From Gammaproteobacteria bacterium (GTDB lineage Bacteria > Pseudomonadota > Gammaproteobacteria > Ga0077554 > Ga007554): 64,000 bases of DNA. This document shows positions 24,051 through 63,757 of this stretch, in pieces; position 1 is the first letter of the stretch, and each line of letters opens with the position of its first letter. Position numbers and translations under genes: made by a program. Below the pieces are notes generated by a model that was not told the DNA's origin, searched no databases, and saw only the letters and a list, made by a program, of their open reading frames with translations. The stretch is from assembly GCA_021731145.1 (NCBI GenBank), contig JAKFXX010000023.1, positions 1-64,000 on the forward strand, read 5' to 3'.

Positions 24051-24863
24051 TCACTGCGCGAAGCGGTATACAACCGGAAGAAGAAGGGCAACTTGTGACC
24101 AGGACTGGCTTTCCAGCTTGAGCGGCATGGCGGCGCGTAGCGTCTCCATAGCACTTTGATCCAGCGCTTCGTGCCCGGAACTCTCCTGCACATCCACTCG
24201 GATCAAGCGGCCGTCTCCGCCCAGGACGACCTTGAGCAACACCCGCCCTTCCCAGCCATTGCGCTTGGCAAGGATAGGATATTTTTTCAGCGCATCTACG
24301 CGGCGCCACAACAAATCCTTCAACAGGCCTGTATCAGGGCTGCTGTTGGCAGTAGGCGACGGGGTTGCTGGGGCAACGGGCGCCGGATCGACCCGCGCCG
24401 GAGGCTCGGCAGTGACCACCGGGGCAGGCGCGGCCTGGGCTACGGCCTGAGTCGGCACAGGCGCCGGTGTTTGCGCCGGTACGGGCACATCGGCCTGACT
24501 TGCCACCGGCACCGCCGAGGACACGACTGGCACCGTCTGCCGGGGCAAAGCCTGTTGCGTAGCAACTACCGGCGGCGGAACGCTACGGGACAGGGGCGGC
24601 TGGGCTGGAACGGGAAAGGCGGAGGTGGCCGGTTCGGCTGCGGCGAGCGATACGTCCCACTCGAACGGCGGCGGTTCGACAGGCCTGGCAAGGGCAAACA
24701 CGGCGGCAATCACCAGACCGCCCACCACACTGTGGAAGGCCAGCGACACCCCCCAGCCGTTGATATGGCTGCCGCGAGGGCAGATTTTTGCTCCTGCAAA
24801 ATCTGCATTTCCACCCTCCATGGCGGTCAAAATGATCCTATCTTCAGGGTAAACTGCGCTCAC
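24051..24863 (-). CDS. tonB: TonB energy-transducing protein
   Basis: TonB carries proton-motive energy from ExbB-ExbD to outer-membrane receptors. The 270-residue protein has one hydrophobic segment (about residues 37-60), a long Pro/Ala/Val-rich spacer (about 65-170), and a C-terminal TonB domain with YPILAKRNGWEGRVLLKVVLGGDG and SSGHEALDQSAMETLR. The N-terminal cytoplasmic part is longer than usual, so a later ATG (residue 15) could be the true start. The GTG at 24863 overlaps the exbD stop (GTGA). Confidence 0.92.
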   Translation of the reverse strand: MSAVYPEDRIILTAMEGGNADFAGAKICPRGSHINGWGVSLAFHSVVGGLVIAAVFALARPVEPPPFEWDVSLAAAEPATSAFPVPAQPPLSRSVPPPVVATQQALPRQTVPVVSSAVPVASQADVPVPAQTPAPVPTQAVAQAAPAPVVTAEPPARVDPAPVAPATPSPTANSSPDTGLLKDLLWRRVDALKKYPILAKRNGWEGRVLLKVVLGGDGRLIRVDVQESSGHEALDQSAMETLRAAMPLKLESQSWSQVALLLPVVYRFAQ

Positions 24864-25234
24864 GAACGCTCCACCTGCAAGCTGACCTTGGTATAACCCA
24901 AGCCCTTCACCGTATCCACCAGCGTAACGAACCGCTCCAGCGGCGTGGCGCGGTCGGCGCGTACCACCACGGAGGTTTCCTTGGCATAGGCACCCAGCGC
25001 GGCACCCAGACCGTCCATGCTGATGGTCTGCTGGTTCAAAAACAGCGCCCCGTCGTTCTTGAGGGTAAGTACCACAGGTTGCTCGATTGCCGCCGTGGCG
25101 TGCTTGGCCTTGGCCAAGTCGATGGGAATCTGGCCGGTGGAGATAAAGGTGGCGGTGGTGAGCACGATCACCAGCAGCACCAGCATCACATCCACCAAGG
25201 GGATGACGTTGATCTGGTCGAGATCACGATCCAC
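24860..25234 (-). CDS. exbD: Biopolymer transport protein ExbD
   Basis: This is the proton-channel partner of ExbB in the TonB complex. The 124-residue protein has one membrane segment (about residues 12-30) with the functional Asp in LVDVMLVLL, and a periplasmic C-terminal domain. Its start lies inside the last codons of exbB (11-base overlap) and its end overlaps tonB by 4 bases. Confidence 0.94.
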   Translation of the reverse strand: MDRDLDQINVIPLVDVMLVLLVIVLTTATFISTGQIPIDLAKAKHATAAIEQPVVLTLKNDGALFLNQQTISMDGLGAALGAYAKETSVVVRADRATPLERFVTLVDTVKGLGYTKVSLQVERS

Positions 25235-25652
25235 GGCGCGCGTCCTCGTAGCGGCTGAGCAGTTCTTTCACCCGCCGCCGCAGCACATTGTTCATCGCCA
25301 CGCACGGGATGGCGACCACCAGCCCCATCGCCGTGGCCTTGAGCGCCATGCTCAGGCCGACCATGATGGAACGCACATCCATGGTGCCCTGCGTGCCCAT
25401 GGTATGAAACGTCACCATGATGCCGAACACCGTGCCCAGTAGCCCGATGTAGGGCGCGTTCGCCGCAATGGTGCCGATCACCGTGAGACGGCGCGTCAAC
25501 TCGGTCTCCAGCGCCTGGGCACTGGCAAACGCCAGCACATCCACGCGGCGGTACAGCGACCACCGTTCCACCGCCACCGCCACCGCCCAGACACTAAGCA
25601 GCAGCAACAGGCCAATTACACCATAATCAACAACATTAGACAGAAGAGACAT
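25224..25652 (-). CDS. exbB: Biopolymer transport protein ExbB
   Basis: This MotA/TolQ/ExbB-type proton channel subunit energises TonB. The 142-residue protein is a short form: one N-terminal membrane segment, then NAPYIGLLGTVFGIMVTFHTMG and GLSMALKATAMGLVVAIPCVAMNN, the conserved membrane pair. The ATG at 25652 gives MSLLSNVVDYG. It is the first gene of exbB-exbD-tonB, with a Fur-box-like site 35 bp upstream. Confidence 0.93.
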   Translation of the reverse strand: MSLLSNVVDYGVIGLLLLLSVWAVAVAVERWSLYRRVDVLAFASAQALETELTRRLTVIGTIAANAPYIGLLGTVFGIMVTFHTMGTQGTMDVRSIMVGLSMALKATAMGLVVAIPCVAMNNVLRRRVKELLSRYEDARRGS

Positions 25653-25686
25653 GGAACGTTTGCCACACACCACAAAGATAACGAAT

Positions 25687-25701
25687 GAGAATCATAATCA
25701 T
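25687..25701 (-). promoter_or_regulatory. Fur-box-like operator before exbB
   Basis: On the minus strand TGATTATGATTCTCA matches TGATAATNATTATCA with two mismatches, within an AT-rich AATGATTATGATTCTCATT stretch. It lies 35 bp before the exbB start, where Fur binding would block transcription. Confidence 0.7.
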
Positions 25702-25750
25702 TATTTATTCTGGGGTCAATTGGCAATTATCCTGACAGCCTGCGGGGCTT

Positions 25751-55340: not shown

Positions 55341-56921
55341 CTAAATCGTATCAGGGGTCACTCCCCATCCCCCCGCAACGGCATCATAACGATTGGCTCT
55401 GATATTTTTGCGCACCCCATAAAACTGCTCCCATACCGCCACGAAATTGCCTTTACTATCCGCAGCAATGCGTGGGTTGTGGGCCTCATGCGCTATGAGT
55501 TTGCACAACTCGGAGCCATCTGGATTGGAGATGATTTCGATGACAGCACTGTTATCTGTCTCAACATTTTGAATCCCAACCCATTGCTGCTTAACGGCAT
55601 CATATCGATTGACCCAGATACTTCCGATGGCAACCCGGCTAGGCTTGCAACTGGTAACCTTCCCCAAGGGATTAGAAACATCTGCCGTAACAATATCGGT
55701 GTGACGCCACACCGCCAGTGCATTGCCAGCCCCGTCAAACGCAACCTGAGGTGTTAGTGCATGCCCCTTATCATCCTGCTCAATGAGTTGAGCCACTTGC
55801 CAGCCGACACCTTTAACATAGCGGTTAGCCCAGATGTTTTTCCAGGCGGGGATGGTATCGTGGGGGTCGTTATCAAAATATTGCTCCCACACCACCAGCG
55901 CATCGCCGTTGTTCGCCATGGCAATACGCGGCACGGCCACCGCCCAGTTAGCATCGCTTTCGATGCGTATCTGCGCTTGCCAGCCCGATCCCGCAGCGTA
56001 GCGGCTTGCATAGACATGGTTCGATTGCACCCATACCGCCAGCGCATTGCCCTCGGCATCCATGGCAACATGAGGATCATCGGCATGTCCGCTGACAACC
56101 GGGTTGTTGCTGAGATCACCCGATATTATTGAATTATCGCTGATCAGGGACGCCACGCCCCATTGCTGGGTGGCAACATCATAATGATTACCCCAAAGGT
56201 TATAACGTTTATTCAGAACGCTGTCGTATTGACCAACCGCATTACTTCGTGCCGCCATCTGCCCCCATACAACAACAAAACTGTCATTGCCACCCACTGC
56301 AATCTGTGGAGATCGGGCGTCGCTGCTATCACCCTCGATAAGTACCGGCCCGCTCCACTGCCGCGTGGTAGCATCATAACGATTGCTCCAGATATTTTTC
56401 CGGGTACTGTCCGACTGCTCCCACACCGCCATCGCATTGCCGCTGCCATCCATGGCAACGTGTGGTGCATTGGCAAAACCCGCATTGTCGCCTTCAAGAA
56501 GCTGGGCCGTACCCCAGCGCTGGGCTGCGGCGTCATACTGGTTGGCCCAGATGTTCCTGCGGGTGTTGTCGGATTTCTCCCATACCACAATGGCATCGCC
56601 TGTCGATTTCCTGATCACAATCTGAGGAAGACCGGAATCCGCACCATTGTCGCTTTCGATGAGTTGCGGTCTGCCCCAACCGGAACCCACCACATAACGA
56701 TTGGCCCAGACATTTCTGCGTGTTCCATTAAACAGTGTCCACACCGCCATTGCGTTGCCACTGTCATCCACAGCAATCTGGGGATCAAAAGAAGCATTCA
56801 GCACAAAACCCGAGTGGCCGGGCACAGGGCCGATTTGCGGCTGTTCCTTATCGCCCCCGCCGCATGCGGCAAGAATAACGCCGGAGAGCAGAAGCACCAA
56901 GGCCTTGAAACCAACTCGCAT
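55341..56921 (-). CDS. Repeat lipoprotein of unknown function, copy 2
   Basis: The 526-residue protein starts with a lipoprotein signal whose lipobox is LAAC, giving a lipid-anchored Cys followed by GGG. About eight repeats of roughly 50-65 residues follow, each with D-x-x-G-N-A-x-A-V-W-x-Q, then N-I-W-A-N-R-Y and G-W or Q-W. Such units could form a beta-propeller. It lacks the Ig-like domain of its upstream paralogue. The ATG at 56921 is preceded by AAGGA. An in-frame frame opening at 57008 would overlap that paralogue. No function can be assigned. Confidence 0.8.
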   Translation of the reverse strand: MRVGFKALVLLLSGVILAACGGGDKEQPQIGPVPGHSGFVLNASFDPQIAVDDSGNAMAVWTLFNGTRRNVWANRYVVGSGWGRPQLIESDNGADSGLPQIVIRKSTGDAIVVWEKSDNTRRNIWANQYDAAAQRWGTAQLLEGDNAGFANAPHVAMDGSGNAMAVWEQSDSTRKNIWSNRYDATTRQWSGPVLIEGDSSDARSPQIAVGGNDSFVVVWGQMAARSNAVGQYDSVLNKRYNLWGNHYDVATQQWGVASLISDNSIISGDLSNNPVVSGHADDPHVAMDAEGNALAVWVQSNHVYASRYAAGSGWQAQIRIESDANWAVAVPRIAMANNGDALVVWEQYFDNDPHDTIPAWKNIWANRYVKGVGWQVAQLIEQDDKGHALTPQVAFDGAGNALAVWRHTDIVTADVSNPLGKVTSCKPSRVAIGSIWVNRYDAVKQQWVGIQNVETDNSAVIEIISNPDGSELCKLIAHEAHNPRIAADSKGNFVAVWEQFYGVRKNIRANRYDAVAGGWGVTPDTI

Positions 56922-56956
56922 GATCGCGTCCTTAAAACAAGATGTGAAATCGTTCA

Positions 56957-58714
56957 TCAAAAACGGCGCTGCCAGATACTCCACCGCGTACCACCACGCT
57001 GTCGCCATGCGGAGATTACGTTGCCACTACCATCGATAACCGCATGGGGATCGTAAGCATCCCCAGCGTCATTTTCCTCGACAAGTGCAGCGGTGCTCCA
57101 ACTGCCCGCCGTATAACGGTTGGACCAGATATTCCAGTGAGTACCGTCGTATTGACGCCACACCGCGATGGCATCCCCATTGATATTCATGGAAACGCTC
57201 GGCTCGCTGGCATCACCTGCATTATCGGTCTCGATGAGCGCTGCTCCTGCCCAGGCACCCTGCGTAAAACGGTTCGACCATATGTTATATCGTGTGCCAT
57301 CAAATTGCCGCCACACCGAAATCGCATTACCGGCGGCATTAATGGCTATCTGCGGAGCATCCGCATCTCCCGTATTGTCATTCTCCATGAGTCCTGCCGC
57401 ACCCCATGCGCCTGACGCATAACGATTAGACCAGATGCTATAACGGCCGCTGCTGTCTGCCTGCCGCCACACGGCAGTCACATTACCACTGCCGTCCTGA
57501 ACGATCTGCGGATCGAACGCCGCTCCATCATCGGCGCCCTCAACAAGAACACGCCCCGCCCAGGCTCCCCCAGCGTAGCGGTTTGCGTAAATACTGTTCG
57601 CAAGAGAGGCGTCAGCGAGAGGTGTCGCCTGCTGCCATACAACAACAGCATTGCCCGAGCCATCCATGGCAACATGAGGTTGTTCCGCATTCCGCCCTTT
57701 CAGATTATCCAGCTCGAGCTGTTCGGGATTACTCCAGGTCCATGTCCCGTTGACATTTACATATCGGCTGGCGGCGATGCTCCCTACACTATACCGATCT
57801 TCGCCCTGCTGATTAAAAGGATTGCAAATAGCAGCAGCATCGCAGAACGGGCCATCAAGCTGCTGCCACACAATGATTGCCTGACCATTGGCATTTACCG
57901 CAACCTGGGGAGTATACGCATTGACCAAAACTTGAGTTGTATTGGCATTTTTTGCTTTAACGAGGGTAGCCGCCTCCCATTGCCCTGTGCTTGCGTCGTA
58001 ATGGCTGGCCCAGATGCTGGAGACGGGAAAAGAGAGGCTATCATCGTGCTGCTGCCAGACAACCCAGGCATCACCATTAGCCGTCATGGCAATCTGAGGA
58101 TTGCGGGCATCGCCCGTGCCGCTGTCGACAGGCGTGACAACATCCCAACCAGCACCCGCCACATAACGCCGCGCCATAATCTTCCAGTAATGGCTCACAC
58201 CGTCCCACTGCTGCCACACAGCGATAGCATTACCGTTGGCATCCATGGCGATTCGCTGCGCCGCAGCGTCTCCCGTATCATCACTCTCAAGCAGCGCCAC
58301 ACCTGGCGTAAAGCTCCAGGTGTACGGCGTCGCCAGCGCATTGCCTGCGGCATCCTTCGCATCAGTGGTAATGGTCACCGTATAGGGTGTGTTGAGATCG
58401 AGTTCCCCTGCCGGGGTAAAAACGACAGTTTTGTATGTATACTTTACGGTGCCTGTAATTGGTTTGCCGCCAGCACTCACGGCAAATGTTGCCGTGGTCA
58501 GTGTGGCAGGATTCATGTCCTCGGAGAATGTGGCGGTGATCGTGGTATGCGAGGGCCCCAGCTTCACGCCATTAAGGGGGCTGGTGGCAATAACTGCGGG
58601 GGCAGTTGCATCAACGGATGATGGCGCTATCTCATCCTTCCCCCCTCCACAGGCGGAAAGAAACAGGCTGAACAGCACCGCAACGAGCAACACATGCCCT
58701 GAACTCGTCCGCAT
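56957..58714 (-). CDS. Repeat lipoprotein with Ig-like domain, copy 1
   Basis: The 585-residue protein has a signal with lipobox LSAC followed by GGG, so it is lipid-anchored. Residues about 36-137 form a Big_5-type Ig-like domain (ATSPLNGVKLGPSHTTITATFSEDMNP, LDLNTPYTVTI, YTWSFTPG). About eight propeller-like repeats follow with the unit GNAIAVWRQ..DGT..NIWSNRY..G.W. A GGAGGG ribosome-binding site precedes the ATG at 58714. Copy 2 lies 35 bp downstream. The pair probably arose by duplication and is likely to be exposed outside the inner membrane. Confidence 0.82.
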   Translation of the reverse strand: MRTSSGHVLLVAVLFSLFLSACGGGKDEIAPSSVDATAPAVIATSPLNGVKLGPSHTTITATFSEDMNPATLTTATFAVSAGGKPITGTVKYTYKTVVFTPAGELDLNTPYTVTITTDAKDAAGNALATPYTWSFTPGVALLESDDTGDAAAQRIAMDANGNAIAVWQQWDGVSHYWKIMARRYVAGAGWDVVTPVDSGTGDARNPQIAMTANGDAWVVWQQHDDSLSFPVSSIWASHYDASTGQWEAATLVKAKNANTTQVLVNAYTPQVAVNANGQAIIVWQQLDGPFCDAAAICNPFNQQGEDRYSVGSIAASRYVNVNGTWTWSNPEQLELDNLKGRNAEQPHVAMDGSGNAVVVWQQATPLADASLANSIYANRYAGGAWAGRVLVEGADDGAAFDPQIVQDGSGNVTAVWRQADSSGRYSIWSNRYASGAWGAAGLMENDNTGDADAPQIAINAAGNAISVWRQFDGTRYNIWSNRFTQGAWAGAALIETDNAGDASEPSVSMNINGDAIAVWRQYDGTHWNIWSNRYTAGSWSTAALVEENDAGDAYDPHAVIDGSGNVISAWRQRGGTRWSIWQRRF

Positions 58715-59070
58715 GGACCCTCCCTCAAAATGTAGAAAATATTATTTTTGTATCTGGCAAGTGTCCATCCATGGCGCATAGCCTGTCAATACACCCTTGC
58801 TTGGCGACTGGAACCGTAGCAACGACGGAATGGCCGCTCTCTGGCATCCTGCCATTGCTGCACCCCCGTATCCACATATATCGGATACGGGAGGCAAGGC
58901 AACACGCGAGCAGTTGCCGATAATTACTAACAAATTGAATATATGATAAAAAATGACGGAATATTCTGCAAATTCAGTCCTCCACTACAGCAGCGACGGG
59001 CTCGTGGAGGTGTGCAGGCAGGGTAACTCATGAAGCAGCAGGTTGGAGCAAGGAGGAGAGTATCAAGTTA
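58715..59070. other. Intergenic region upstream of the lipoprotein pair
   Basis: This stretch of about 355 bp holds one clear element: a perfect 9-bp hairpin CCCGTATCC/GGATACGGG (58865-58891) with a 9-base loop. It lies in what should be the 5' leader or promoter region of the lipoproteins. I compared it with c-di-GMP and other common riboswitch patterns and saw no match. It ends at the IS256 end. Confidence 0.45.
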
Positions 59071-59490
59071 TCCGTGTAACTGCCCTTAAGCCTTGACCCG
59101 CTCAGTCCCGAAAATGATCGCAAATTTATTCAGTGCCTGTTTCCAATCACGAATAGGCATTGTCCACTTTTTCGATACATTTTTGGTACCCAGGTAGAGC
59201 ACCTTCAGAATGGCATCGTCATTGGAAAACACGCCCCTGTTTTTCAATGCCCGGAGCAAGGAGTAGTTCAGCGACTCGATGGCGTTAGTGGTGTAGATGG
59301 CATTGCGGATATCGGGCGGATAATCAAAAATACCGTCAGCCGACCCCAGTCGGCACGCCATCGGGGGCTGATGGCTGGGTATTTACTGTCCCAGCGCCTG
59401 TTCGGCCTCGGCCAAGGTGGCGGCACCATAAATGGCCCACAAATCAAGCGTGGCTTCAGCGAATTTATAGAGGCGCCGTTCACTCTACCA
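59071..59490 (-). pseudogene. Decayed IS256-family transposase (C-terminal part)
   Basis: Three frames each give part of an IS256 (Mutator-type) transposase C-terminus. In order on the minus strand they are: KFAEATLDLWAIYGAATL; then DSKYPAISPRWRADWGRL; then FDYPPDIRNAIYTTNAIESL with SKKWTMPIRDWKQALN to the stop at 59086. So two frameshifts are present and the N-terminal two-thirds are missing. Just beyond the stop, TAAGGGCAGTTACACGGA (59071-59088) has the look of an IS256-type terminal repeat. The element is inactive. Confidence 0.85.
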
Positions 59491-59533
59491 AATAGAGCAT
59501 TATCTACTTATGTAAATACTCTCTATGATTTTA

Positions 59534-59581
59534 TGGTGGGCCCGCTCGGACTCGAACCAAGGGCCAAGGGATTATGAGTCC
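59534..59581 (-). tRNA. 3' fragment of a CAU-anticodon tRNA (probable att remnant)
   Basis: On the minus strand, 48 bp read as the 3' part of a tRNA. The anticodon loop is CTCATAA; the T-arm CTTGG-TTCGAGT-CCGAG pairs fully (with one G-T); the acceptor 3' strand CGGGCCC is followed by A and CCA. The 5' half (D-arm, acceptor 5' strand) is absent: upstream bases become AT-rich and unpaired. A CAU anticodon means elongator Met or Ile2. Such 3' tRNA pieces are commonly left by integrative elements that recombine into tRNA genes. Confidence 0.75.
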
Positions 59582-59878
59582 GTTAATTAAAGTCACCATA
59601 TCAAACAATACATAACAATACAATAAGTTACATCGCGATACTTCACTACACACTCCTTTGTGGTACTACGCCGTCGACATTTCGTTGACATATCGGTGTC
59701 CACCGAATTTCGACCTGTGGGTTTTCACATTGAATACCGATTGGTGTACATCCGAGCCCCCAAAATGGCTGCGCTCGGCGACAAGTAGGTGGCACAGCAA
59801 GACATTCAGGCCATCCACCGGATTCGGAACCGGCAGAAGCTTCTCGCCCTCGCTTCACTCTCCATAGCTCGTCGGCCG
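59582..59878. other. Intergenic region between the tRNA fragment and the nif promoter region
   Basis: This stretch of about 300 bp begins AT-rich, with repeated AACAATACA-type words, and then has a GTCGACATTTCGTTGAC block. No gene is supported. A 47-codon GTG frame (59789-59932) overlaps the NifA site and is not called. Some of this DNA may be mobile-element debris. Confidence 0.4.
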
Positions 59879-59894
59879 TGTAAGAAAGCCTACA
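59879..59894 (+). promoter_or_regulatory. NifA upstream activator sequence
   Basis: TGT-AAGAAAGCCT-ACA fits the NifA consensus TGT-N10-ACA exactly. It lies about 90 bp upstream of a -24/-12 promoter, the usual distance for looping by NifA with IHF. Confidence 0.7.
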
Positions 59895-59977
59895 AGATTA
59901 TCCGCAAAACCCGACAAACCCCCACCCACTGAAGCAACATTAAAATAAAAAACCTAATGTAACAATGGGTTGAAGAA

Positions 59978-59993
59978 TGGCACAGCTTTTGCC
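59978..59993 (+). promoter_or_regulatory. Sigma-54 (-24/-12) promoter of the nif operon
   Basis: TGGCACAGCTTTTGC matches TGGCACRNNNNTTGC at every fixed position. The first gene starts about 40 bp downstream. With the NifA site, it indicates NifA-dependent expression under nitrogen-fixing conditions. Confidence 0.85.
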
Positions 59994-60033
59994 TCACCTC
60001 TTGTAGAGAGTCTTTCCACAAGGGGAATAAACC

Positions 60034-60423
60034 ATGGTGATGCTAACGTCCAAGGCAACGGCCGCAGTACAACAGTTGATCGCGTCATCGGATCCGGACA
60101 TTGCAGGATTGCGCGTAATGGTGAAGGACGGCGGCTGTTCCGGGTATCAGTACATGATGAACCTGGAATCCTCGCCCGATGCAGAAGATGAGGTGCATTC
60201 GTTCGATACGATAAAGGTCTTCATTGATCCCACAAGCAAACCACTGCTGAGTAGCGTCACCATTGATTATGTGGAAGACATTACTGGGGTCGGTTTCAAG
60301 TTTGAAAATCTGAACGCTACTGCGACGTGTGGTTGCGGTTCGTCTTTTTCCATCGACTCCCAATCTCAAACTGAAAATAGCGATCCGCGCGTAACTGAAA
60401 CAGCCTGTAACCGAAGGGGATAA
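60034..60423 (+). CDS. iscA: HesB/IscA-type iron-sulfur scaffold of the nif operon
   Basis: This A-type carrier delivers iron-sulfur clusters for nitrogenase assembly. The 129-residue protein has the three conserved cysteines: Cys35 in GGCSGYQY, then Cys99 and Cys101 in TCGCGSSF. A short polar tail follows. AAGGGG precedes the ATG at 60034; a second ATG two codons later is possible. It is the first gene after the sigma-54 promoter and corresponds to iscA-nif of Azotobacter. Confidence 0.9.
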   Translation: MVMLTSKATAAVQQLIASSDPDIAGLRVMVKDGGCSGYQYMMNLESSPDAEDEVHSFDTIKVFIDPTSKPLLSSVTIDYVEDITGVGFKFENLNATATCGCGSSFSIDSQSQTENSDPRVTETACNRRG

Positions 60424-60429
60424 TACATC

Positions 60430-61368
60430 ATGTGGGACTATTCCGAGAAAGTTAAAGAACATTTCTTCAATCCAAAAAACGCAGGGGTGCTCGAAGAGGC
60501 CAATGCGGTCGGTGAAGTCGGTTCGATTTCATGCGGTGATGCGTTGCGCCTGATGCTCAAGGTAGACCCTGTCACGGATGTGATTCTCGACGCCCGTTTT
60601 CAAACATTCGGTTGCGGCTCCGCGATTGCCTCCTCTTCCGCGCTGACGGAAATCATCAAGGGCAAAACCACGGATGAGGCATTAAAAGTCACCAATCAGG
60701 ACATCGCCGCATTCCTCGAAGGCCTGCCGCCGGAAAAGATGCACTGCTCGGTGATGGGCGCAGAGGCGCTGCACGCGGCGGTGGCGAATTATCGTGGCGA
60801 GGCCTGGAGCGATGACCACGAAGAAGGCGCCTTGGTGTGCAAGTGCTTCGGCGTGGATGCGGCGCTCATTGAGCGCACGGTACGCGACAACGACCTCAAG
60901 ACCATGGAACAGGTGACCTGCTACACCAAGGCGGGCGGTGGTTGCCAGACGTGTCATGAGAAGATCGAGGAAATTCTCATGACAGTGAATGGCTCGGTGC
61001 CAGTGGCCGCAGCGGCCGCTCCCGGCATCCTGCCTCCTGCGGCACTAGAGCGTCCCTGCACGTCGGCTATACCCGCACCTGCCCCGGTTTCAAAACCAGT
61101 GCCGACGACCAAGAGAATGACCAATTTGCAGAAGATCAATCTCATCAGCAGCGTGATTGAAGATATCCGCCCTCAGTTGCAGCGTGACGGCGGCGATGTA
61201 GATCTGGTCGACGTGGACGGTGACACGGTCTATGTCTCAATGACAGGAATGTGCGCAAGCTGTCAGATGTCTGCCATGACTGTCTCTGGAATTCAAGAGC
61301 GCCTGATAACGGCGCTTGAGCGTCCGCTGCGAGTGGTGCCGGTGCAACCCGAACGCGTGAGGGCCTAA
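60430..61368 (+). CDS. nifU: Nitrogen-fixation iron-sulfur scaffold NifU
   Basis: NifU assembles 2Fe-2S and 4Fe-4S clusters from sulfur given by NifS for nitrogenase. The 312-residue protein is the full three-domain form. The IscU-like N-terminus has Cys35, Cys62 and Cys106. The central 2Fe-2S domain has Cys137, Cys139, Cys172 and Cys175. The Nfu-like C-terminus has CASC (Cys275, Cys278). All ligands are present. It lies 6 bp after the IscA-type gene and 3 bp before nifS. Confidence 0.97.
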
Positions 61369-61371
61369 GTC

Positions 61372-62601
61372 ATGACTGACGGGCATATACAAGTCATGAC
61401 GGGCATATACATGGACAACAATGCGACGACACGAGTGGATCCGCAAGTGGTTGCCGAGATGTTGCCCTACTTTACCGAGCAGTTCGGAAACCCCTCTTCC
61501 ATGCACAGTTTCGGTGGTGACGTGGGGGAAAAGATCGAGTGGGCGCGTGGACAAATCCAGAAATTGCTGGGCGCGGAGCATGACACGGAGATCATTTTTA
61601 CCTCTTGCGGTACCGAGTCGGATTCAACGGCCATTCTCTCCGCGCTGGCGGCTTATCCTGCGCGCAAGGAGATCATCACTTCGATAGTCGAGCATCCCGC
61701 TGTGCTGGCGCTCTGTGAACATCTGGAAAAACAGGGAGGATACAAGATCCACCGCATCGGCGTGGACGGCAAGGGCCGCCTCGACATGGACGCCTATGCA
61801 CGCGCCCTGAGTGACAAGGTGGCAGTGGTGTCAATCATGTATGCCAACAACGAGACGGGCACGATTTTTCCTGTGGAGGCATTGGCGCGCATGGCCAAGC
61901 CTCATGGTGCACTGTTTCATACCGATGCGGTGCAGGCAGTGGGAAAGATTCCGCTCGACATGAAAAATTCGGCTATCGACATGCTTTCGCTTTCGGGGCA
62001 CAAATTACATGCACCCAAGGGCGTGGGCGCCCTGTATGTGCGGCGTGGCACACGCTTCCGCCCGTTTTTGCGCGGCGGACACCAGGAGCGCGGGCGGCGC
62101 GCGGGCACGGAGAACACGACCGGCATCATTGGGTTGGGCAAGGCGGCGGAACTGGCGCTGAGCCACATGCACATCGAAAATACCCAGGTCAAGGCGCTAC
62201 GTAACAAACTGGAACAAGGAATACTCGCTGCGGTGCCGAATTGCTTTGTTACCGGCGATCCTGATCATCGTCTGCCTAACACCTGCAACATCGCGTTTGA
62301 ATACATTGAGGGCGAGGCGATTTTGTTGCTGCTAAGCCATCAAGGTATCGCCGCCTCATCGGGTTCCGCGTGTACCTCGGGTGCATTGGAACCGTCGCAT
62401 GTGATGCGCGCCATGAATATTCCCTACACAGCAGCGCATGGCTCCACTCGCTTTAGCCTCTCACGTGAGAACACCCAGGCCGAGATAGACCGGGTGATTG
62501 AGGTAATGCCAAAAATTATAGCTCAATTGAGGGCACTTTCACCCTACTGGGGAGTGAATGGCCCCATCGAAGAGCGCACGTTCGCGCCGGTGTATGCGTA
62601 A
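61372..62601 (+). CDS. nifS: Cysteine desulfurase NifS
   Basis: NifS releases sulfur from cysteine with PLP and passes it to NifU. The protein has the PLP lysine in LSGHKLHAPKG, a His in SIVEHPAVL, and the persulfide cysteine in SSGSACTSG. In-frame starts lie at 61372, 61396 and 61411. The last gives the typical MDNNATTRVD; the first two arise from a 20-bp duplication that copied the start region. From 61411 it would have 396 residues. It is followed by nifV. Confidence 0.96.
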   Translation: MTDGHIQVMTGIYMDNNATTRVDPQVVAEMLPYFTEQFGNPSSMHSFGGDVGEKIEWARGQIQKLLGAEHDTEIIFTSCGTESDSTAILSALAAYPARKEIITSIVEHPAVLALCEHLEKQGGYKIHRIGVDGKGRLDMDAYARALSDKVAVVSIMYANNETGTIFPVEALARMAKPHGALFHTDAVQAVGKIPLDMKNSAIDMLSLSGHKLHAPKGVGALYVRRGTRFRPFLRGGHQERGRRAGTENTTGIIGLGKAAELALSHMHIENTQVKALRNKLEQGILAAVPNCFVTGDPDHRLPNTCNIAFEYIEGEAILLLLSHQGIAASSGSACTSGALEPSHVMRAMNIPYTAAHGSTRFSLSRENTQAEIDRVIEVMPKIIAQLRALSPYWGVNGPIEERTFAPVYA

Positions 62602-62614
62602 CGAGGTTACGGAC

Positions 62615-63757
62615 ATGAGTCAGAATTTCGTAGCGATCAACGACACGACCTTGCGCGACGGCGAGCAGACCGCCGGTGTCACATTTACCGCCGAAGAGAA
62701 GCTGACCATCGCGCGCCATCTCGACATGGCCGGTGTGCCCGAACTTGAGGTAGGTATCCCCGGCATGGGCGCGAAGGAGCAGGAAACTATTCGTGCAATT
62801 GCGGGCATGGGGCTTGCCGCACGACTCATTGTGTGGAGCCGTATGTGCCGCGCAGATCTGGCCGCTGCTGCCACCTGCAATATAGAAATGGTGAATCTCT
62901 CGATTCCCGTCTCCGACATCCAGATCAGACACAAACTCCAGAAAGACCGCGGCTGGGTGATAAAGACCATACAGGAATACGTGACCACCGCTCGTGACCT
63001 GGGTATGGAAGTTTGTGTGGGTGGAGAAGACTCATCACGCGCCGACATGGACTTTCTGATCCAGGCCGCGCAGGCGGCCCAGCAAGCAGGGGCACGGCGC
63101 TTCCGCTTCGCCGATACGCTGGGTTTGATGGATCCGTTTACCACGGCCTCTCGCATCGCGACGCTGTGCGAGGCCGTGGATCTGGAGATCGAGATGCACG
63201 CCCATGACGACTTGGGTCTGGCCACCGCCAACTCGCTCGCTGCGGTGATGGCAGGCGCAACTCACGTCAACACCACCGTAAACGGTTTGGGTGAACGCGC
63301 GGGCAATGCACCACTCGAAGAAGTGGTGATGGTACTGCGCCACGTAAACAACAATGAGACAGGGATAGACATGCGGCGATTCCCCGAAATTTCGCGCCTG
63401 GTGGCAAAGGCCTCAGGCCGCCCGGTACCAGTCAACAAAAGCATCGTTGGCGAGGCGGTGTTTACCCATGAAGCCGGTGTGCATGTGGATGGCTTGTTGA
63501 AGAATCCACTCAATTACCAGGGCTTCGATCCAGCAGAGGTGGGGCGCGAACATCGTTTGGTGCTGGGCAAACACTCCGGCTCCAAGGGGGTGATGCATGC
63601 TTATGCCAAGCTTGGGATTATTCTCACGGGCGCACAGGCCAGCTCGATACTCGATCTGATTCGCAGCCATGCGAATGCAACCAAGCAAGTTCCCACGACA
63701 GCCGACCTGAAGCGTATTTACTGGGAAACCATCCATTATGCCCAGCTTCATTCATAA
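62615..63757 (+). CDS. nifV: Homocitrate synthase NifV
   Basis: NifV condenses acetyl-CoA with 2-oxoglutarate to give homocitrate, the organic acid of the iron-molybdenum cofactor. The 380-residue protein has the catalytic INDTTLRDGEQTAGV, the HAHDDLGLATAN motif, GLGERAGNAPLEEVVM, and the TIM-barrel/C-terminal connector HSGSKGV. The ATG at 62615 has GAGG upstream. A longer frame from 62558 overlaps nifS and is rejected. Confidence 0.94.
   Translation: MSQNFVAINDTTLRDGEQTAGVTFTAEEKLTIARHLDMAGVPELEVGIPGMGAKEQETIRAIAGMGLAARLIVWSRMCRADLAAAATCNIEMVNLSIPVSDIQIRHKLQKDRGWVIKTIQEYVTTARDLGMEVCVGGEDSSRADMDFLIQAAQAAQQAGARRFRFADTLGLMDPFTTASRIATLCEAVDLEIEMHAHDDLGLATANSLAAVMAGATHVNTTVNGLGERAGNAPLEEVVMVLRHVNNNETGIDMRRFPEISRLVAKASGRPVPVNKSIVGEAVFTHEAGVHVDGLLKNPLNYQGFDPAEVGREHRLVLGKHSGSKGVMHAYAKLGIILTGAQASSILDLIRSHANATKQVPTTADLKRIYWETIHYAQLHS

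Follow-up and report, generated by a model that had tools for sequence, protein, structure and literature searches.

A displaced tRNA-CAU 3′ fragment beside nif genes: probable attR-type scar of a tyrosine-integrase element

Introduction

Why does half a tRNA gene stand in front of a nitrogen-fixation operon? In the window, as we call the whole 64,000-nucleotide stretch of DNA analysed here, a 48-bp tRNA fragment lies between a broken IS256 transposase and a row of nif genes. The original prediction, made from the sequence alone, saw in it a probable scar of the kind that a tyrosine-integrase element leaves at the far end of its insertion, and suggested that the nif block, or a lipoprotein block on the other side, may have come in on such an element. 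The setting is as it described: a Transposase_mut remnant lies on one side, and iscA-like, nifU, nifS and nifV genes begin on the other at 60034. Two questions follow: is the fragment such a scar, and what would the scar say about the history of the nif genes?

Results

Base-by-base comparison identifies the 48 bp at 59534-59581 (minus strand) as the displaced 3′ half of a tRNA-CAU gene. It runs from the anticodon loop, CTCATAA, through the variable region, the T-arm and the acceptor 3′ strand to the CCA end, and is identical at 46/48 bases to the 3′-terminal 48 bases of an intact tRNA-CAU gene at C4:52913-52989 (C numbers are contigs of this genome; the window lies on C17). The second-best site for the 48-mer in the window, on both strands, has 26 matches, 50 mononucleotide shuffles of the window gave a maximum of 29, and when 28 further tRNAs from this genome were compared by their 3′ halves, the maximum was 37, at the fragment's own site. 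Even the 13 bp past the CCA (59521-59533, minus strand) still resemble the DNA that follows the intact tRNA. The D-arm and the acceptor 5′ strand are missing and no complete cloverleaf is present: ARAGORN reports no tRNA gene in the window, Rfam nothing at its gathering score, and the tRNA model gives the 48-bp fragment 16.2 bits against a cut-off of 29. The predicted anatomy, with T-arm, acceptor 3′ strand, CCA and CAU loop present and the 5′ half gone, is therefore correct. Genome-wide, 42 of the 45 listed matches to the tRNA model lie above the cut-off; the three below it are the window fragment, a second fragment (C12:20784) and a weak match inside the C32 tmRNA (C32:19674), the last of which was rejected as a fragment on account of that location.

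The complete gene that the prediction required elsewhere in the genome is thus present, at C4:52913-52989 and with the agreement of 46/48 given above, and the fragment is not part of an unusual complete tRNA of its own. The intact gene lies on a different contig from the scar in the window. Three CAU tRNAs were seen in the genome, ARAGORN having been run on 30 of the 42 matches above the cut-off; the two others are an initiator-like and an elongator-like Met, and by elimination the partner is probably tRNA-Ile2, under the ARAGORN label Met. Upstream of it is a gene of 616 aa, which we take from its sequence to be rpoD. In the relative G002 (contig C68; L084:15473-15528), a tRNA-CAU beside an rpoD-like gene lacks its 5′ half (~26 bp including the D-arm), and ARAGORN calls no tRNA in L084; with that genome 78% complete, this may be either a true loss or an assembly error.

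Where the tRNA likeness ends, at the anticodon loop, non-tRNA sequence takes the place of the 5′ half. The ~65 bp that abut this junction (59582-59648, minus strand) form a putative element end, or attP arm, and recur beside the same tRNA half at two further places: at C12:20769-20895, a second scar of the same type in this genome (82% over 128 bp), and at G003:C7:1390289-1390404 in the congener G003 (89%). Over the 58 bp before the junction, the window agrees with G003 at 55/58 positions and with C12 at 45/58, and C12 agrees with G003 at 43/58. When the element end with 10 bp of the fragment was compared with 369 genomes of the class, three places were found at E < 1e-13, only in this genome and G003; the remaining six matches at E <= 0.01 are 19-38 bp long. 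The element end was not found in the phage and plasmid records searched, where BLAST matched the tRNA part alone, and a pattern search of viral contigs for the junction 19-mer returned 0. In G003 a single contig carries both the intact tRNA and the fragment, in the same orientation and separated by 64.4 kb, and the cargo between them is unrelated to the window save for short matches. Beyond the element end, the window continues with an intergenic stretch without an integrase gene (59649-60033). This stretch holds a 40-bp repeat (59748-59787) that is found at 93% at several sites of this genome and also in G001 and G006.

How general is the truncation? The tRNA was matched in 42 of 56 genomes, mostly as the tRNA itself. 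Besides this genome and G003, ten genomes have at least two matches, six of which were examined, so that the set compared here comprises 11 fragments: two from this genome, one from G003 and eight from the six further genomes; left out were G001, G008, G031 and G051 (two matches each) and two more matches in G032. In 9/11 fragments, similarity to the tRNA starts at CTCATAA or at most three bases earlier; the exceptions are G024_f, which is longer and has CGCATAA, and G040_f3, which begins later. In the alignment, two rows that had no anchor for the script were read by eye, and the intact tRNA of G018 is not included. ARAGORN makes no tRNA call at any of the fragments. Two of the islands carry a Phage_integrase gene, that of G032 lying 72 bp away from the intact tRNA and that of G011 beside the fragment; the Pfam search covered selected ORFs (four in G011, four in G032 and two in G040), and neither of the two in G040 is an integrase. 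Among 29 loci, many of which reach just 1.5 kb from the tRNA, no pre-insertion (empty) site was seen, and prfC was near the tRNA or a fragment at just two of them, the C12 and G003 scars.

On the element side of the window, the nif block opens with an iscA-like Fe-S protein gene (60034-60423; PF01521), followed by nifU (60430-61368), a nifS-like class-V aminotransferase gene named from family and position (61372-62601) and a nifV-like homocitrate synthase gene (62558-63757), all on the plus strand. Past the window it continues with a cysE-like gene, ETF subunits with a FAD protein (fixB/A/C-like), a 2Fe-2S ferredoxin, a globin, modE and a porin. The intact tRNA has nif genes behind it as well: 113 bp after it on C4 comes an LRV-FeS protein gene, then a GAF/sigma-54 activator (nifA-like) and a nifB-like radical SAM gene and, further along, nifH, four Oxidored_nitro proteins (nifD/K/E/N by order) and nifQ. 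Each att product, on C4 and on C17, is thus directly adjoined by nif genes, on the side expected for an island. The nif region on C4 also contains an MmeI-type restriction-modification gene (G000:C4:30463-33294, G000 being this genome). Of 20 genomes searched, this one alone has nifH above the family cut-off (0/19 relatives). The integrase that the prediction looked for between tRNA and fragment did not turn up: none of the genome's seven Phage_integrase matches (E <= 0.001) lies on C17 or on C4:1-52912, where Pfam was run on 20 selected ORFs. The sole match on C4, at 84778, is on the rpoD side of the tRNA, and no tie of the seven integrases to the scar was established.

Gene order and remnants were also compared in relatives. 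Eighty loci were kept around NifV proteins 57-71% identical to that of the window, a set that may leave out the genome's own records. By best-hit labels, nifA stands beside nifS/nifU in L097 and L098, and nifQ/N/E/K stand beside fix in L143; these orders would be compatible with either history discussed below, cargo or break. Among the matches listed for C4:43000-52899 against seven relatives there is no long nif remnant, only repeats and short matches at the coordinates of the sigma-54 activator and the nifB side. G003, in which no nifH was found above the cut-off, retains parts of three genes: nifQ (residues 88-197, 84.5%), the globin (residues 29-135) and modE (residues 86-269). We read these as signs of a lost nif cluster. 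They lie away from the tRNA, at G003:C7:458059-458388 (nifQ) and 853212-855713; the nifQ remnant is beside DNA orthologous to C9, and the globin/modE/porin/mod block is orthologous to C17:70030-74206. With the remnants in these places, nif is probably older than the split between this genome and G003, its ends already next to those regions, and G003 lost the cluster; tRNA and scar may then mark either its entry or a later break.

With the tRNA and the fragment on different contigs, no single contig shows the whole island. The end of C17 and the start of C4 match adjoining bases of G003 (853-858 kb), and a second copy of the mod genes spans the end of C9 and the start of C7 (97% and 96%). The molybdate-transport region is thus present twice, at 96-97% identity and at contig ends (C17:72905-74206 with C4:1-1214; C9:88357-89658 with C7:1-1217), which makes the joins ambiguous. 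Since C7 carries on the gene order of G003 and C9 leads to the G003 site with part of nifQ, the joins C17 to C7 and C9 to C4 appear, from sequence comparison, to fit better than C17 to C4. A contiguous 67.7-kb nif island running from C17 into C4 was considered; the second mod copy at the C9 end and C7 start disfavours it without disproving it.

The flank side of the scar holds IS debris: the C-terminal remnant of an IS256/Mutator transposase (59086-59361, minus strand; Transposase_mut, profile positions 322-377 of 379) and a short repeat at 59447-59480, by eye like a MITE or IS terminal repeat, which ends 53 bp from the fragment. A ~134-bp MITE-like repeat (for example C12:21309-21443) is present in the genome in ~20 near-identical copies (94-98%), and the sequence at 59447-59480 resembles its terminal repeat. 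prfC flanks the C12 scar, as it does the G003 scar; the flank of the window scar differs, so this locus has been rearranged. On its element side, the C12 scar passes after ~570 bp into DNA found in G003 at 336-346 kb, and all three att sites of this genome lie at synteny breaks with G003. Counterparts of the lipoprotein block (55.3-58.8 kb) occur in G001 and G003, adjoining the counterpart of window 24-25.7 kb. By this comparison the block looks like ordinary DNA of the genus that was moved by rearrangement, and the suggestion that it might be cargo of the element is not sustained. The segments 24056-25742 and 55345-58802 of the window are neighbours in G003 and G001; the ~30 kb between them here, including his genes, were inserted or rearranged.

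Discussion

We consider it about 85% probable that the 48 bp are a displaced tRNA 3′ fragment, the attR-type scar of a tyrosine integrase that would act at the anticodon loop. This reading draws on the same junction in other genomes, the integrases in the G032 and G011 islands and the known anticodon att sites; the predicted integration scar is well supported, given the complete tRNA and the recurrence of the junction in relatives. Fragment, intact partner, common element end and recurring junction are there to be seen; from them we infer the enzyme and the order of events as follows. A tyrosine-integrase element would have recombined with the tRNA-CAU beside the rpoD-like gene, the crossover falling at the anticodon loop. 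The element's own copy of the 3′ half would have restored the tRNA on one side, now C4:52913-52989, and the host's original 3′ half would have been pushed to the far end of the element, behind its terminal ~65 bp. The window would show this far end; the integrase would since have been lost, and the element side is now occupied by nifU/S/V-fix. As no integrase was found on C17 or on C4:1-52912, we do not class the locus as a complete island, but it is compatible with a decayed relic. As to function, the scar does no more than mark an endpoint.

What, then, does the endpoint say about nif? Our preferred reading, to which we would give even odds, is that nif was cargo at tRNA-CAU and was later split by rearrangement. 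The original proposal that nif came on the element gains from the position of nif genes behind both att products. It loses from the lack of an integrase, from the distribution of the two blocks over different contigs and from the G003 remnants of nifQ and globin/modE away from the tRNA.

Somewhat less probable, yet a serious competitor, is an older chromosomal nif cluster with nifQ at one end and globin/modE/mod at the other, which was broken between LRV-FeS/nifA and iscA/nifU by way of the att site. The scar would in that case tentatively mark the place where nif broke and not where it arrived. In G003, parts of nifQ remain next to a C9-like region and parts of globin/modE next to a C7-like region, and at least two relatives (L097 and L098, of 80 loci) have nifA adjacent to nifS/nifU. 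That all three att sites here coincide with synteny breaks relative to G003 also fits, but islands alone would give the same picture. Such a break, however, must fall within ~113 bp of the tRNA and within ~390 bp of the element end, and no attP-like site is known between LRV-FeS and iscA in any relative examined. A specific form, in which the integrase itself cut nif, the tRNA att site recombining with an att-like site in the older cluster and a large segment of the chromosome being inverted, seems unlikely to us. If it were true, nifA/B/H/D/K/E/N/Q would now follow the restored tRNA, nifU/S/V-fix would follow the displaced half, and the nitrogenase regulon would have been split in two.

We find it more doubtful still that the fragment arrived with the IS/MITE debris, by transposition or by IS-mediated recombination of a scar that arose in another place, and has nothing to do with nif. 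The IS256 remnant at 59086-59361, the terminal-repeat-like sequence 53 bp from the fragment and the ~20 near-identical MITE-like copies of ~134 bp elsewhere in the genome make such a route conceivable, but this debris occupies the flank, with the element end and nif opposite, in the polarity expected where an island terminates. The intact tRNA, too, is followed by nif genes, independently of this scar. Finally, it is very improbable that the fragment works as an atypical tRNA or as another small RNA: the anticodon loop and the T-arm are almost intact, but the D-arm and acceptor 5′ strand are gone, the model score falls short of the cut-off, ARAGORN sees no tRNA and the same truncation is seen again in other genomes.

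The type of scar is textbook and its mechanism well known; its interest comes from what it can tell of how the nif genes evolved here. Whether nif entered as cargo, as we prefer, or was broken at the site, the scar is a landmark for the gain, split or loss of nitrogen fixation in the genus.

The locus can be placed among known tRNA islands. In the available part of the Islander paper (PMC4383910), a displaced tDNA fragment and an anticodon-centred att site are standard for tRNA islands, and its table assigns an anticodon-centred att site to 2083/3919 islands; the anticodon loop, where identity ends here, is among the crossover subsites it recognises. Like those islands, with an intact tDNA at one end and a displaced 3′ fragment at the other, our locus has both pieces and an att site centred on the anticodon. 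Unlike them, it has no integrase that we could find, and with tRNA and fragment on separate contigs the interval is not measurable, so that the integrase and length filters given in that part of the paper would not pass it. Tandem arrays are described for SGI1 in the part of PMC2297512 available to us.

Phage records match the same stretch of a tRNA-CAU gene. Records of the Pseudomonas phages phi3 (twice) and BIBS67 match the 48 bp at 85-88%, at the end of an integrase gene, and the phi3 protein carries Phage_integrase. By eye, the likeness of BIBS67 stops in the anticodon loop, and phi3 also has the tRNA 5′ half, so that phi3 is uninformative on the position of the crossover; as the query was the tRNA 3′ half only, the extent of the phage matches proves little. 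The Pf-tRNA-Met filamentous phages of P. aeruginosa, as far as the accessible text of PMC7549136 describes them, have tRNA-Met as attB and a 46-bp fragment of it as attP, a short tRNA-Met fragment comparable to the scar, of perhaps the same isoacceptor as the partner here.

A parallel in content is the nitrogen-fixation island of P. stutzeri, which, according to the portion of PMC4174501 at hand, lies between cobS and gshP and in DSM 4166 is not associated with a tRNA. There, too, a nif cluster is found without integrase or transposase genes, a point which that portion discusses with regard to anchored islands. Unlike the P. stutzeri island as described there, both nif blocks in our genome abut the products of a tRNA att site.
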